From SAR86 cluster bacterium (GTDB lineage: Bacteria > Pseudomonadota > Gammaproteobacteria > Pseudomonadales > Azotimanducaceae): a stretch of DNA of 22,669 bases. Below, one piece after another: positions 10,294 to 18,830 of the stretch. How positions within the stretch are numbered: position 1 is the stretch's first letter; each line of letters opens with the position of its first letter. Where the stretch lies: contig JABMOJ010000065.1 in the NCBI GenBank assembly GCA_013204195.1, positions 1 to 22,669 of the forward strand, in the 5' to 3' direction. The translations under genes were made by a program, and so were the position numbers. The notes below the pieces were generated by a model. That model was not told the origin of the DNA and did not search any database. It worked only from the letters and a program-made list of their open reading frames with translations.

Positions 10294-11346
10294 TTACTCA
10301 TCAACCAATTCACGCTGCACTCTGGCGGTCAGACCGGACATCAGGGTATAGCCAATGGAGCCCACTAATGCTGCCACTTCATCGACCGGTAGTGCCCGGC
10401 CCCACATCTCGGCTCGCTCATTGGGAGCTGTCGGCAGGTCACCCACATCCACCATCAAGGTATCCATGGAAACTCGGCCTACAATCGGTCGCCGCTGGCC
10501 ATTGATCCAAACCGGCATTTGCACCGGGACTTCCCGTGGATAACCATCAGCATAGCCGATGCCCAACACTGCAATACGGGTATTTTTCGGCGCGCGCCAG
10601 ATACTGCCATAACCAATCGTCTCTCCCGCTGCCACGGCCTTAACCGAGAGCACCGGTGCTGTCAGGGTCATCGCCAGACGTAAGTCAGCCACATTATTGT
10701 TCGCCGGAGAACTGCCATAAAGCATAATGCCTGGGCGAATCCAGTCATAATGACTCTCAGGCCAACCGAGGATAGCCCCTGAATTTGCCAGACTGCGAGG
10801 TATGCCCAAGTCTTTGGTTAGGGCCTCAAACAATGCCAACTGGGCACTATTTTCTGGATGCGCAAGACGCTCAGCGTTGGCGAGGTGACTCAAGACGCAG
10901 GTCACATTGAATTCGCCACTGGTGATGATGGCCTGAAACGCCACCGGCGAAAATCCTAACCGGTGCATGCCTGTATCGAGCTTGAGCCAGACCGGCAGGT
11001 CGCGACTGCCCTGATCGGACAACAGATCGAGCTGATACTGGCTATGCACGGTCGGCGTCAGCGCAGCTTGTCGACAAGCCTCGAGTTCTTGCAGGTCGTT
11101 AAAGCCATGCAACACAATAATGGGCTGCTTGACACCCTGGGCACGCAATTGTTGGCCTTCAGCAACTCGAGCGACACCAAAAGCGTCGACCCTTTGCAGG
11201 CGAGATGCCAGACCCAGCATGTCATGCCCGTAGGCGTTGCCTTTGACCATCGCCAACAATTGACTATGGGGCGAACAGGCGCGGGCAAGATCGAGATTGT
11301 GTTGAATCCCTCGAACGTGGATTCTCGCGATGGGCGAACTACTCAT
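10294..11346 (-). CDS. alr: alanine racemase
   Basis: A PLP-dependent enzyme that interconverts L- and D-alanine to supply peptidoglycan synthesis. The 350-residue protein has the PLP lysine Lys35 in AMVKGNAYGHD, the pyridine-contacting Arg204 in WIRPGIMLYG, and the catalytic Tyr246 in GETIGYGSIW followed by LGIGYADGYPRE. Length is slightly below the usual ~357. The start ATG 11346 lies inside the last unit of a 13-bp tandem repeat. There is no canonical Shine-Dalgarno before it, only GAG-containing repeat sequence. Expression probably depends on reinitiation or coupling with dnaB or with mini-ORFs in the repeat. The dnaB-alr order is conserved in Pseudomonas relatives. Confidence 0.96.
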   Translation of the reverse strand: MSSSPIARIHVRGIQHNLDLARACSPHSQLLAMVKGNAYGHDMLGLASRLQRVDAFGVARVAEGQQLRAQGVKQPIIVLHGFNDLQELEACRQAALTPTVHSQYQLDLLSDQGSRDLPVWLKLDTGMHRLGFSPVAFQAIITSGEFNVTCVLSHLANAERLAHPENSAQLALFEALTKDLGIPRSLANSGAILGWPESHYDWIRPGIMLYGSSPANNNVADLRLAMTLTAPVLSVKAVAAGETIGYGSIWRAPKNTRIAVLGIGYADGYPREVPVQMPVWINGQRRPIVGRVSMDTLMVDVGDLPTAPNERAEMWGRALPVDEVAALVGSIGYTLMSGLTARVQRELVDE

Positions 11347-11429
11347 AGAAGCTACTCACAGAAGTTACTCATAGAAGCGCCGCATATGAGTGGCTCATCC
11401 GAGCGACTCATAGAGGCTACTCATACATG
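11339..11429 (-). repeat. seven-copy 13-bp tandem repeat bridging dnaB stop and alr start
   Basis: Seven contiguous 13-bp units, read on the minus strand with consensus CTTCTATGAGTAG. In order from dnaB: CATGTATGAGTAG, CCTCTATGAGTCG, CTCGGATGAGCCA, CTCATATGCGGCG, CTTCTATGAGTAA, CTTCTGTGAGTAG, CTTCTATGAGTAG. Unit 1 supplies the last two codons and TAG of dnaB; unit 7 supplies the ATG of alr. Six units carry ATG and one GTG at the same phase, and four carry an in-phase TAG or TAA. Because 13 is not a multiple of 3, successive starts lie in rotating frames. Confidence 0.9.
11352..11411 (-). other. possible 19-codon upstream ORF before alr
   Basis: Within the 13-bp repeat, the ATG of unit 2 opens a 19-codon frame (MSRSDEPLICGASMSNFCE) closed by the TAG of unit 6. 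The stop is 5 nt before the alr ATG. There is no strong ribosome site and no similarity that I recognise. It may be a by-product of the repeat or a coupling leader for alr. Confidence 0.2.
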
Positions 11430-12793
11430 TAATCATCATAACCCTGAGCCAGATCCTCAAACTTGGTGTACTGGCCAATAAACGCCAGCTTCTTGCGACC
11501 AATAGGACCATTTCGTTGTTTCAGGATAATCGCCTCAGCGACGCCTTTTTCGGCGTCGTCGTGATAAACCTCGTCTCGATAGATCGCCAGAATAACATCC
11601 GCATCCTGCTCGATGGCGCCAGACTCTCGCAGGTCAGACATGATCGGACGCTTGTCGGGTCGCTGCTCCAGACCTCGGTTGAGCTGAGACAGAGCAACCA
11701 ACGGACACTCAAACTCCTTGGCTATCCCCTTCAGCCCACGAGAAATTTCAGAGATTTCTGTCGCTCGATTCTCCGAGCCGCCCGTCACCTGCATCAATTG
11801 CAGATAGTCCACCACGATCAAGCCGATAGGACCGTGTTCACGGACAATCCGTCGACATCGAGAGCGAATTTCATTGGGCGATAGGGCCGAGGAATCATCG
11901 ATAAACAACGGCTTGTCGTTCAACAACGTGACCGCTGATGTGAGTCTTGGCCAGTCTTCGTCGCTCAACTGTCCGCTTCGAATTTTTGATTGGTCTATTC
12001 GCCCGAGAGACGACAGCATACGCATGATCAATGAATCCGCTGGCATCTCCATACTAAACACCAAGACTGGCTTGTCACCGGCTATCACGGCATTTTCTGC
12101 AACGTTCATCGCGAAACTGGTCTTCCCCATGGATGGTCGTCCAGCGACAATCACCAGGTCACCCTTCTGCAGGCCCATGGTCATTTCATCGATATCACGA
12201 AAGCCTGTGCTCAGTCCCGTCAGCGAGCCTTTGGTTTGAAACAACTCATCGATGCGCTCAACAGCCTTGGTCAGAACACTACGTACTGGCTGAGGGCCTC
12301 CGCTTGAGGGCCGCGAATCGCCGATTTGGAAAACTTTGGATTCCGCCAGATCGATCAGCGTCGCACTATCGCGACCGTCGGGATTAAAACCACTATCGGC
12401 AATCTCATGGGCGACCGAGATCAGCTTACGAACGGTGGCACGTTCAACCACAATGGTGGCATAGGCGCGGATATTTGAGGTGGTGGGAATACTGTTGGCA
12501 AGATCAGACAAGTAGGCAATACCACCGACATTGCTGAGCTCATTGACAGCACTCAAGGCCTCAGAGATGGTAATGATATCAAGGGGTTTGTTCTGTTCCG
12601 CCATGCTTGCCATGCAGCGAAATATCACTCGATGATCGCCACGATAGAAATCCTCGGCGGTCAACAAACCTGAAATATGGTCGAACGCCTGCTCGTCGAG
12701 CATTAAGCCGCCGAGAACGGACCGTTCAGCCTCCAACGAGTGGGGGGGAACCTTGAGGGTCGCGGTGTTGATGTCGTCTGTTGCTATAGCCAA
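11417..12793 (-). CDS. dnaB: replicative DNA helicase DnaB
   Basis: The hexameric 5'-3' helicase of the replication fork. The 458-residue protein has the N-terminal DnaG-interacting domain starting LKVPPHSLEAERSVLGGLMLD (13-33). The RecA-like domain has Walker A GRPSMGKTS (218-226), the LIVVDYLQLM Walker B, SEISRGLKGIAKE, ALSQLNRGLEQRPDKRP and SGAIEQDADVI. There is no intein. The only usable start at the expected place is TTG 12793. No ATG or GTG was found in the codons I read upstream, and the Shine-Dalgarno is poor, so the start is less certain than the identity. The stop codon lies in the first unit of a 13-bp repeat array leading into alr. Confidence 0.96.
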   Translation of the reverse strand: MAIATDDINTATLKVPPHSLEAERSVLGGLMLDEQAFDHISGLLTAEDFYRGDHRVIFRCMASMAEQNKPLDIITISEALSAVNELSNVGGIAYLSDLANSIPTTSNIRAYATIVVERATVRKLISVAHEIADSGFNPDGRDSATLIDLAESKVFQIGDSRPSSGGPQPVRSVLTKAVERIDELFQTKGSLTGLSTGFRDIDEMTMGLQKGDLVIVAGRPSMGKTSFAMNVAENAVIAGDKPVLVFSMEMPADSLIMRMLSSLGRIDQSKIRSGQLSDEDWPRLTSAVTLLNDKPLFIDDSSALSPNEIRSRCRRIVREHGPIGLIVVDYLQLMQVTGGSENRATEISEISRGLKGIAKEFECPLVALSQLNRGLEQRPDKRPIMSDLRESGAIEQDADVILAIYRDEVYHDDAEKGVAEAIILKQRNGPIGRKKLAFIGQYTKFEDLAQGYDDYMYE

Positions 12794-15943: not shown

Positions 15944-18417
15944 TTGCGCCGCCTGCGCTTAGGCGCGTCGACTTTTTCAACGGCGCTGACATCAGACGGC
16001 GCCTTGGGCTTGGGCTTGGGCTTGGGATTGGCCTTGGGCTTTGATTTAGACTTCGGCTGGTCATTCGCCTGAACTTTGGCTTTAGCTTTAGCTTTGGCCT
16101 TGGCTTTTGGTCGAGGCTTGCCGTCATGTTTTGAGCCAGACTTAGCGTTCGTTTTCGACCTAGACCCGGCTCCGCCCTTGACCACATTTTTGTGGGCCTT
16201 ACGGCGACTAGTCAGCGGCTCATGGGATATCAGCTCAAAATCCATTTTACGTTCTGTCACATTGACTCGGGCAACTTCGACACTGACGGTATCGCCCATC
16301 CCATAGGTCACCCCGGTTCGCTCACCCACGAGCGTCTGGCTCTGCTGATCAAATTGGTAGTAGTCGCCAGCCAGCGTGCTGACATGGACCAGGCCTTCCA
16401 CAAAAACGTCCACCAACTCAACAAAAAAACCAAACTTGGCGACGCCAATGATAACGCCGTCATGAATATCGCCAACACGATCACTCATGTAGTCGCACTT
16501 AATCCACTCCAACACTTCATAAACCGCCGCATCCGCACGGCGCTCCACCAAAGACGTATGTTCACCCAGCGCCATTACCTCTAGGGCCTCATAGGGGTAG
16601 TAGCTGGCCTTAGCCGGCTTGCCGAAGCGCAAGATCCAATCACTCAGTGTTGGGCCGTGAATCACGCTCTTGATGAGGCGATGCATCAGCAAGTCAGGGT
16701 AACGTCGGATCGGCGAGGTGAAATGCGCGTATTCCTTATAGCCCAGACCAAAGTGACCCTTGTTTTCAGGCTGGTAAACGGCCTGATTCATGGAGCGCAA
16801 CAAAGCCATCTGTAACACGTGGCTATTCTTCTTCTCCCGCAATTGACTGATCACCTGTTGGTAATCGCGGGTTGTGGGGTTCTCGCTATCTTCCATGGTG
16901 ACATTGAAGCGACCCAGAAAACCACGCAACAACTCTACTTTTTCGGCAGTGGGCGGCTCATGAACTCGAAACAGCCCCGGCTTGCCGTGCTTCACAATAA
17001 ATTGCGCGGCACAAACGTTGGCGCAAAGCATGCACTCTTCGATGATGCGATGGGCGATATTTCGGCTACGAGGTGAAATGGAGCTGACACTACCCTTCTC
17101 ATCAAAGAAAAATTGCAACTCTGTGGATTCGAACTCAAGGGCACCGCGCTCGTGGCGCTTCTCCATCAAGACATCAAATAAATCGCGCAAATCCAGCAGC
17201 TTCGGGATCAACTCTGGATGATCGAAGGCCTCTGAGGGCGAATTGATCAGACCGGCGACATCGGTATAGGTCAGACGCGCGGCTGAACGGATCACTGCCT
17301 CATAAAATTTGTACGCTGTGACCCGCCCTTTGGCGGAGATCTGCATATCGCAGACTATAACCAGTCGGTCAACATAGGGATTGAGTGAACACAGGCCATT
17401 CGACAGCTTTTCTGGCAGCATCGGCACCACATATTGCGGGAAATACACCGAGGTACCACGAGCAAATGCCGCCTGATCCAGCGCCGAACCTACTTCCACG
17501 TAGTGCGCCACATCGGCGATCGCCACCCGCAATTGCCAGCCACCTCGAGATTTCGGCTCACAGAGCACCGCATCGTCGAAGTCTCGCGCATCTTCACCAT
17601 CAATGGTCACAAACGGCAGTTCGCGCAGATCCTGACGACCCACCAGATCCTTTTCTCTGACTTGGCTTGGCATGCGATCCACCAAGGCGTCTACTTCTTC
17701 AGTCCAATCAACGGGTATGTCGTGGTTCCGCAAGGCAATACCCACTTCCATATCTGGCGTCAGCTGCTCACCCAGGACTTCAACAATTTCAGCGGTCACA
17801 TGGCCATGACCTTTGGGGTGCTCAAGCACCTTGACGACAACGATCTGACCTTCTGGCTGCTGATCAACTTTGACCGCCGGCAGTAGAATATCGAAATTAA
17901 TACGATTATTTAGGGGGTCAACAAAACATAAGGCCCCTTCGTGGAATACCCGCCCCACGAGCTGATCGGTATTACGCTGGACAACTTCAACAATATCGCC
18001 CTGCAGGCGGCCGCGCCGATCCTTGCCGCCGACTCGAACCTGAGCAATATCACCATGGAAGACCTTGTGCATTTGCCGCTCGGAGAGAAACACGTCCTCT
18101 TCGCCCTTCGGCGTGACAAGAAAGCCATAGCCATCAGAATGAGCGGAGATTTTACCGGTAATCAACTCCATCTTACTGGCGATGGCGAAGATATTGCGCC
18201 GGTCAAACACCAGCTGACCATCTCGGACCATGGCCCGAAGCCGATTTTGCAAGGCGTCCCGCTGGCTTTCAGCTTCTAGAGCCAGTGTTTTCGCCAGTTC
18301 TTTAAAGCCCATGGGCTCACCGGCTTGCTCCATGCAGGCGAGAATATGCTCTCGACTGGCGATGGGTTCAGCGTAGTTTCGCGCTTCGCGATGTTGAAAT
18401 GGATCTTTTTTCATCAT
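15940..18417 (-). CDS. rnr: ribonuclease R
   Basis: A processive 3'-5' exoribonuclease that degrades structured RNA. The 825-residue protein has an N-terminal winged-helix domain (about 22-85) and two cold-shock domains (about 88-245). The RNB catalytic domain (about 260-600) has the metal-binding aspartates in TIDGEDARDFDDAV (Asp273, 279, 281, 282). An S1 domain (about 655-740, GVIIGVAKFGFFVELVDVFVEGLVHVSTL) follows. The last ~80 residues are a disordered basic tail of Lys-Ala and Lys-Pro repeats ending PKRRRRK. Tails of this kind help RNase R bind structured RNA and ribosomes. The start is ATG 18417, with a second ATG next to it; the Shine-Dalgarno is weak. It overlaps rlmB by 4 nt. Confidence 0.96.
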   Translation of the reverse strand: MMKKDPFQHREARNYAEPIASREHILACMEQAGEPMGFKELAKTLALEAESQRDALQNRLRAMVRDGQLVFDRRNIFAIASKMELITGKISAHSDGYGFLVTPKGEEDVFLSERQMHKVFHGDIAQVRVGGKDRRGRLQGDIVEVVQRNTDQLVGRVFHEGALCFVDPLNNRINFDILLPAVKVDQQPEGQIVVVKVLEHPKGHGHVTAEIVEVLGEQLTPDMEVGIALRNHDIPVDWTEEVDALVDRMPSQVREKDLVGRQDLRELPFVTIDGEDARDFDDAVLCEPKSRGGWQLRVAIADVAHYVEVGSALDQAAFARGTSVYFPQYVVPMLPEKLSNGLCSLNPYVDRLVIVCDMQISAKGRVTAYKFYEAVIRSAARLTYTDVAGLINSPSEAFDHPELIPKLLDLRDLFDVLMEKRHERGALEFESTELQFFFDEKGSVSSISPRSRNIAHRIIEECMLCANVCAAQFIVKHGKPGLFRVHEPPTAEKVELLRGFLGRFNVTMEDSENPTTRDYQQVISQLREKKNSHVLQMALLRSMNQAVYQPENKGHFGLGYKEYAHFTSPIRRYPDLLMHRLIKSVIHGPTLSDWILRFGKPAKASYYPYEALEVMALGEHTSLVERRADAAVYEVLEWIKCDYMSDRVGDIHDGVIIGVAKFGFFVELVDVFVEGLVHVSTLAGDYYQFDQQSQTLVGERTGVTYGMGDTVSVEVARVNVTERKMDFELISHEPLTSRRKAHKNVVKGGAGSRSKTNAKSGSKHDGKPRPKAKAKAKAKAKVQANDQPKSKSKPKANPKPKPKPKAPSDVSAVEKVDAPKRRRRK
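16003..16038 (-). repeat. hexanucleotide repeat encoding Pro-Lys run of RNase R
   Basis: Four perfect CTTGGG units (16003-16026, plus strand), then ATTGGC and another CTTGGG. On the coding strand these give alternating Pro-Lys. Gain or loss of units would keep the reading frame. Confidence 0.9.
16073..16108 (-). repeat. hexanucleotide repeat encoding Lys-Ala run of RNase R
   Basis: Six near-identical hexamers of GCTTTA/GCTTTG type on the plus strand, encoding alternating Lys-Ala on the minus strand. Synonymous changes between units suggest an older array than the CTTGGG run. Confidence 0.85.
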
Positions 18418-18476: not shown

Positions 18477-18563
18477 GCCGAGGTGGTGAAATTGGTAGAC
18501 ACGCTAGCTTCAGGTGCTAGTGCTCGCAAGGGCGTGGAGGTTCAAGTCCTCTCCTCGGCACCA
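18477..18563 (+). tRNA. tRNA-Leu (anticodon CAG)
   Basis: An 87-nt class II tRNA. The acceptor stem GCCGAGG pairs with CCTCGGC, followed by discriminator A and an encoded CCA. The anticodon stem CTAGC/GCTAG encloses the loop TTCAGGT, giving anticodon CAG, which reads CUG. A long variable arm (GCTCGCAAGGGC region) and the T arm with GGTTCAAGTCC follow. It strongly resembles the E. coli CAG leucine tRNA. It lies divergent from rnr, a position shared with Pseudomonas relatives. Confidence 0.97.
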
Positions 18564-18656: not shown

Positions 18657-18699
18657 TCTCTTAGTAATCTGTCTTAATATTCAGCAGTAACAGTCTATC

Positions 18700-18738
18700 G
18701 TGATCATCTGTTGTGATCATCTGTCGTGAAAATCTGTG
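18700..18738 (+). repeat. three 13-bp direct repeats
   Basis: GTGATCATCTGTT, GTGATCATCTGTC and GTGAAAATCTGTG lie head to tail. The first two contain the palindrome TGATCA. The phase is 13 bp, as in the alr repeat, but the sequence is different. Confidence 0.85.
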
Positions 18739-18756
18739 CCAGCATTTTCCTGGCAC
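18736..18756 (+). other. 7-bp stem-loop between the two repeat arrays
   Basis: GTGCCAG and CTGGCAC form a perfect stem around a 7-nt loop (CATTTTC). No T-run follows. Confidence 0.5.
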
Positions 18757-18766
18757 CGCCACTTTA

Positions 18767-18830
18767 CCGATACAGGCACTTTGCCGATACAGGCACTTTG
18801 CCGACACACGCTCTTCGCCGACAGGCGAGG
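18767..18830 (+). repeat. 17-bp direct repeats, about 3.5 copies
   Basis: CCGATACAGGCACTTTG occurs twice without a change (18767-18783, 18784-18800). A diverged third unit CCGACACACGCTCTTCG and a partial fourth starting CCGACAGGC follow. The upstream CCACTTTA looks like the tail of an earlier unit. Confidence 0.85.

Follow-up and report, generated by a model that had tools for sequence, protein, structure and literature searches.

A 13-bp tandem array at the dnaB–alr junction of a SAR86 cluster bacterium, probably derived from a duplicated stop/start overlap

Bacterial variable-number tandem repeats consist of short head-to-tail units whose copy number differs among relatives, and both properties are shared by a 13-bp array lying between the genes for the replicative DNA helicase (dnaB) and alanine racemase (alr) of a SAR86 cluster bacterium. 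The array differs from such repeats in that its unit contains both a stop for the first gene and a start for the second, and neither protein is affected by the copy number. The same gene pair in the same order is found in related gammaproteobacteria, where dnaB and alr are joined by a single overlap and the array is absent (−8 in the congener G001, −4 in G007, and Marinobacter loci such as L100 with −1). The closest described arrangement is translational coupling of neighboring genes at stop/start overlaps (NTGA for −4, TGATG for −1, and NTGNNTGA for −8). The intact units of the array share the −8 geometry, and a TGA overlapping the start codon (ATGA or GTGA, −4), as in coupled pairs, is present in six of the seven units. 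Such overlap spacings are described as enriched in a review (PMC12548453), which names −4, −1, and −8, and in PMC6728339. In the coupled pairs described there, one overlap joins two genes, whereas here five to seven repeats with mini-ORFs between them occupy the junction, and coupling at this locus is a candidate function. A tandemly repeated stop/start overlap is not reported in the titles and opening lines of abstracts of the literature searched, with subscription journals mostly outside reach. Our preferred explanation combines tandem duplication of a stop/start overlap with termination and reinitiation along the copies, and we assign it a probability of approximately 0.6 as a whole.

Anatomy of the dnaB–alr junction

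The window, which is the whole stretch of DNA analyzed (22,669 nt), is one contig of a 3.16-Mb genome assembly in 593 contigs that is 87% complete. TRF called an array with a period of 13 at 11339–11425 (6.7 copies, score of 69), which reads out on the minus strand as seven adjoining 13-bp units at 11339–11429. The head-to-tail copies are beyond chance; when the window was shuffled 60 times (first order), no array scored 69 or more, and two arrays in total scored at least 50. The genes and units are as follows, all on the minus strand.

11417–12793, minus strand: dnaB, replicative DNA helicase (Pfam and NCBIfam), ending ...GYDDYMYE, with a TTG start as mechanically listed
11417–11419, minus strand: TAG stop codon of dnaB, within unit 1
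11417–11429, minus strand: unit 1, CATGTATGAGTAG, containing TAT GAG TAG of dnaB and the ATG that it overlaps
11404–11416, minus strand: unit 2, CCTCTATGAGTCG, with ATG and without TAG or TAA at its end
11391–11403, minus strand: unit 3, CTCGGATGAGCCA, with ATGA and without TAG or TAA at its end
11378–11390, minus strand: unit 4, CTCATATGCGGCG, with ATG and without either stop; no counterpart in G004 in the alignment by eye
11365–11377, minus strand: unit 5, CTTCTATGAGTAA; no counterpart in G004 in the alignment by eye
11352–11364, minus strand: unit 6, CTTCTGTGAGTAG, with GTG, as in the penultimate units of G003 and G004
11339–11351, minus strand: unit 7, CTTCTATGAGTAG, containing the alr start
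11344–11346, minus strand: ATG start codon of alr, within unit 7, the sole in-frame candidate listed
10294–11346, minus strand: alr, alanine racemase, 350 aa (Pfam and NCBIfam)

A sequence-only reading of this DNA had described seven 13-bp units holding the dnaB stop and the alr start and carrying ATG or GTG at one phase in each unit, and the array agreed with it in these respects, with six units having ATG and one having GTG. Its statement that most units carry TAG or TAA holds by a slim majority, as these stops are found at the ends of units 1, 5, 6, and 7 and are missing in units 2–4. The intact unit, TATGAGTAG, reads Y E stop in the dnaB frame and M S S from its own ATG in the alr frame, giving a −8 stop/start overlap identical in geometry to that at the G001 junction. 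As 13 leaves a remainder of one on division by three, the ATG of an intact unit is in frame with the terminal stop of the next unit, and where that stop is mutated, the mini-ORF continues until a later unit supplies one. Mini-ORFs stopping on later units, also noted by the sequence-only reading, are present in the array. A search of the source genome for the unit with at most one mismatch retrieved four matches, three of them inside the array, compared with six for the reversed control pattern, and the unit was rejected as a dispersed repeat.

The alr start was searched for from the preceding in-frame stop to 60 nt into the gene. The best Shine–Dalgarno pairing of this gene was GAG (−2.2 kcal/mol), one of the weaker pairings in a set of 17 window genes, scored with the canonical anti-Shine–Dalgarno sequence in place of one read from the genome's own 16S. 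A strong Shine–Dalgarno site for alr was rejected on this result, in line with the earlier remark that alr has no canonical one. No match to a sigma-70-like promoter, the promoter type covered, and no match to a terminator were found at 11200–12000.

Junctions of relatives and origin of the array

DnaB was searched for in 58 genomes including the source genome and matched in 57. The genus comprises six of these genomes, again including the source genome, and Alr was found in all six. Three congeners carry the array, with seven units in the source genome, six in G003, and five in G004 (DnaB 98% identical in both), as seen in one genome per species. The distance from the dnaB stop to the alr ATG is +70, +57, and +44, respectively, in exact 13-nt steps, and the DnaB end (...GYDDYMYE) and the Alr start (MSSSPIA) are identical in all three. 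The sequence-only reading had called for a unit count in relatives and had held that a uniform copy number together with a strong alr start elsewhere would mark the array as neutral debris; the counts differ by whole units, and neither another in-frame alr start nor a strong ribosome site was detected. Units 1, 2, 3, 6, and 7 of the window match units 1–5 of G004 in order when aligned by eye, which suggests that the array is probably older than the split of the three species and that units were gained and lost later.

The remaining junctions of the genus are of several types. G001 has no array, and its dnaB stop and alr start overlap by 8 nt, TATGAATAAC, so that the end of dnaB (TAT GAA TAA) and the start of alr (ATG AAT AAC) share bases. 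G002 and G005 also have no array, and their spacers are longer. In G005, the dnaB stop is overlapped by an ATG that begins an 18-codon ORF, and the TGA of this ORF forms a 4-nt overlap with the alr ATG; the stretch between the two ATGs is 53 nt, near four 13-nt periods, and clear repeats were not seen in it by eye. The corresponding ORF of G002 has five codons and ends with GTG at −1. Among 24 family loci, including those of G001 and G002, TRF detected nine arrays, none of them at the dnaB–alr junction. The sequence-only reading had taken the array to replace the usual dnaB–alr spacer; several relatives have a stop/start overlap and no spacer to be replaced. A scan of viral contigs gave 14 pattern matches, none of which had DnaB or Alr at E 1e-5.

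It is very probable that the array arose by tandem duplication of a stop/start overlap. The final bases of the ancestral dnaB, TATGAGTAG, would have both terminated that gene (Y E stop) and begun alr in the next frame (M S S), forming an 8-nt overlap of the kind still found in G001. A 13-bp stretch that includes the overlap would then have been duplicated, and units would have been gained and lost thereafter, moving the genes apart, with dnaB ending at the first copy and alr beginning at the last and with neither gene harmed. The array would be tolerated because dnaB and alr each retain their own copy of the overlap. When the arrays of the three genomes are collapsed to one unit, all three give dnaB ending in ...YDDYMYE-stop and alr beginning with MSSSPIA, joined by a −8 overlap.

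Alr N-termini from other genomes were compared with 35 distinct DnaB tails. Of the 120 listed closest Alr proteins among 7959 found, seven have an N-terminus that one or more of these tails can encode in the +1 frame over seven codons, compared with an average of 0.04 for shuffled Alr heads; several of the seven are close kin and hence not independent, all are known from protein rather than DNA, and as the heads were not matched to the tails of their own genomes, a fitting tail may come from another genome. The two nearest Alr clusters contain 64 and 27 members. Examples are MTITRMSNTP, and MTITRMSN against ...YDDYAYE-stop. A looser test over at least three residues was passed by 12 of these 120 proteins, compared with a shuffle mean of 2.96. 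From the G001 overlap and the Alr N-termini readable in DnaB tails, the stop/start overlap looks ancestral and derivation of the array from it is the likeliest course, and we infer the polarity from overlap to array accordingly in this direction. A counterpoint is provided by G005, which has neither the array nor a direct dnaB–alr overlap although the DnaB tree places it as the sister of the array clade (support of 87/85, with only 269 aa of the G005 DnaB used, as its gene is split over two contigs). In the Alr tree, unlike the DnaB tree, G005 groups with the long-branched G001. For nine Alr proteins (P0005–P0007, P0009, P0011, P0013, P0014, P0056, and P0057), the predicted start may fall within dnaB, with the conserved start perhaps lying further on, at the Met of MSN or MSD.

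Short noncoding arrays in the surrounding genomes

Noncoding arrays with a TRF score of at least 50, with coding regions defined by a simple ORF rule, are common in the genomes sampled around this locus. There were 65 in 651 kb of G003 (L121–L180), 13 in 151 kb of the source genome (L181–L200 and the window, counting the dnaB–alr array), and 77 in 329 kb of G006 (L201–L220). Densities were far lower elsewhere: G041 had five in 400 kb, and 20 other genomes sampled at 20 kb each had three in 400 kb, none with a period below 25; the congener G002 had none in its 20 kb. Periods of 11–16 bp accounted for 53 of the 65 arrays in G003, 11 of the 13 in the source genome, and 54 of the 77 in G006, and the units differed. 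No gene was called on one side of 28, 2, and 11 of these arrays, respectively; the G003 figure may be inflated, as its one-sided arrays lie mostly at contig ends. When coding was ignored, 32 Halomonadaceae dnaB-region loci contained 46 arrays in 202 kb, many of them one recurring 21-bp or 15-bp repeat, compared with 6 in 129 kb of Marinobacter and other loci and 9 in 148 kb of the 24 family loci. The Halomonadaceae counts weigh against a clean contrast in array density.

The dnaB–alr array is one instance of a local habit and is special in having fallen on a stop/start overlap. Given how frequent short noncoding arrays are here, its expansion requires no special cause or selection. Co-directed genes flank 75 noncoding arrays in the source-genome, G003, and G006 samples, and two of these arrays bridge the junction itself, namely the dnaB–alr array and one in G006. 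The latter is an 11-bp array (L219:16448–16488), and its units contain stop codons without start codons. This commonness of arrays and the match of the unit to the overlap of a congener were not visible to a reader of the window alone.

A single array could be paired between the G003 and source-genome samples, with a difference of one unit: its 16-bp unit occurs twice in G003 (L174:201–233) and once in the source genome (L191). Within the window, 13-bp and 17-bp arrays lie at 18694–18821 behind a tRNA-Leu gene (18477–18563), and the same place in G003 (L242) has different repeats, which suggests rapid repeat turnover there. Two arrays of 6-bp units lie at 16003–16107 in the far 3' part of a gene matching ribonuclease R. 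Loss of a repair gene was considered as a cause of the arrays and rejected, as the patterns of neither the 5'–3' exonuclease domain PF02739 nor MutS explain them. PF02739 was found in 38 of 38 genomes, in a frame of 902–918 residues in the source genome, G003, G004, and G006, as expected of PolA, and only in a 277-residue frame in G001. MutS was above the cut-off in 34 of 38 genomes; the source genome (87% complete) gave no match, and its five genus mates were each above the cut-off, with a match in G006 as well.

Reinitiation along the array and rival explanations

The second part of the preferred explanation, a working relay along the array, is doubtful and well short of an even chance. We infer that coupling from dnaB to alr would be kept by termination and reinitiation along the array. 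A ribosome that terminates on one unit would restart at the start codon overlapping that stop, read six or nine codons, stop on a later unit, and restart again, until the ATG of the last unit finally opens alr. ATG or GTG is kept in all 18 units of the source genome, G003, and G004, and each of the 15 unit starts other than that of alr opens an ORF whose stop overlaps the start of a later unit; these mini-ORFs mostly have six or nine codons, with one of 19. The chain from unit 1 to alr proceeds in all three genomes by hops that are each −4 or −8, requiring five restarts in the source genome and four each in G003 and G004. The dnaB stop and the alr start are themselves not overlapping or a few nucleotides apart as in coupled pairs, and coupling could only be stepwise. 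According to the review PMC12548453, coupling is best from −4 to +3, becomes 3–10-fold weaker towards roughly +40, the limit to which it was followed, and falls faster with deeper overlap. The direct gaps (+44 to +70) exceed that range, and coupling, if it persists, would therefore run through a stepwise relay. As deeper overlap lowers coupling in that review, the −8 hops may be poor, and four to five successive restarts could be costly for alr expression. The G005 junction, with its 18-codon ORF and −4 overlap, is a point for the relay, and the G002 mini-ORF ending at −1, outside the −4 and −8 spacings, is a point against the pattern.

The observed substitutions were scattered randomly over the middle units as a null model. 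All middle starts survived with p values of 0.040, 0.027, and 0.089 in the source genome, G003, and G004, respectively, and of about 0.006 jointly (0.003 when the absence of dead-end mini-ORFs was added), in a test chosen post hoc with few independent substitutions and a rough phylogeny. An intact chain alone gave p values of 0.24, 0.30, and 0.41, and 0.074 jointly. Columns 1 and 10, which are outside the start codon, are as invariant as the start codon. These comparisons give moderate, post hoc support to retention of the unit start codons, little evidence that the chain as such has been selected, and weak support for selection of the relay. It is unlikely that a relay from dnaB to alr via three or four mini-ORFs operates with its starts under selection and with the unit number setting alanine racemase output.

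A nearly even chance is given to neutral repeat debris left by slippage, which shares the duplicated-overlap origin with the preferred explanation and denies the relay; alr would be started independently, and the ladder of starts and stops would merely be inherited from the duplicated unit. The abundance of noncoding arrays in the source genome, G003, and G006, set against the array-poor samples of G041 and the 20 further genomes, is consistent with it, as are the missing terminal stops of units 2–4 and the joint p value of the intact chain. Against it stand the retention of all interior starts in three genomes, the weak Shine–Dalgarno of alr, and the lack of a sigma-70-like match near its start. 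Tuning of alr translation by copy number, raised by the sequence-only reading, is possible from the whole-unit differences between species and the restart numbers of five, four, and four. Its selective form, in which unit gain and loss are favored for altering the steps or distance of reinitiation and hence the alanine racemase level, is improbable, since six and five units alike need four restarts, and the single genome seen per species gives no sign that unit number varies within a population or is under selection.

An RNA element is a very improbable account of the array. The repeat would fold such that translation of dnaB opens the alr start, as in the coupling model based on RNA unfolding, and mutual pairing of the units, which have short stretches of complementarity, is indeed predicted. 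This reading was rejected because the folding energies are not clearly beyond those of dinucleotide shuffles (the z values of the three genomes are −1.50, −0.49, and +0.24, and their folds were equaled or bettered by 16, 56, and 115 of 200 shuffles), and the predicted folds differ among the genomes. On/off phase variation of alr through unit number, the other device proposed by the sequence-only reading, retains next to no probability. The unit length is not a multiple of three and the unit number varies, but the array is spanned by the reading frame of neither protein; dnaB stops in unit 1 and alr starts in the last unit, so both protein ends are unchanged with five, six, or seven units, and a frameshift switch is contradicted by the anatomy. 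Copy number was found to switch neither a frame nor a promoter, the latter checked for sigma-70-like promoters only.

Under the preferred explanation, overlapping genes can separate without being broken, since duplication of the overlap leaves one copy for each gene. The junctions with one, five, six, and seven units form a natural series that asks whether a bacterial ribosome restarts several times in succession, and the array points to genomes that are unusually rich in short noncoding tandem arrays.
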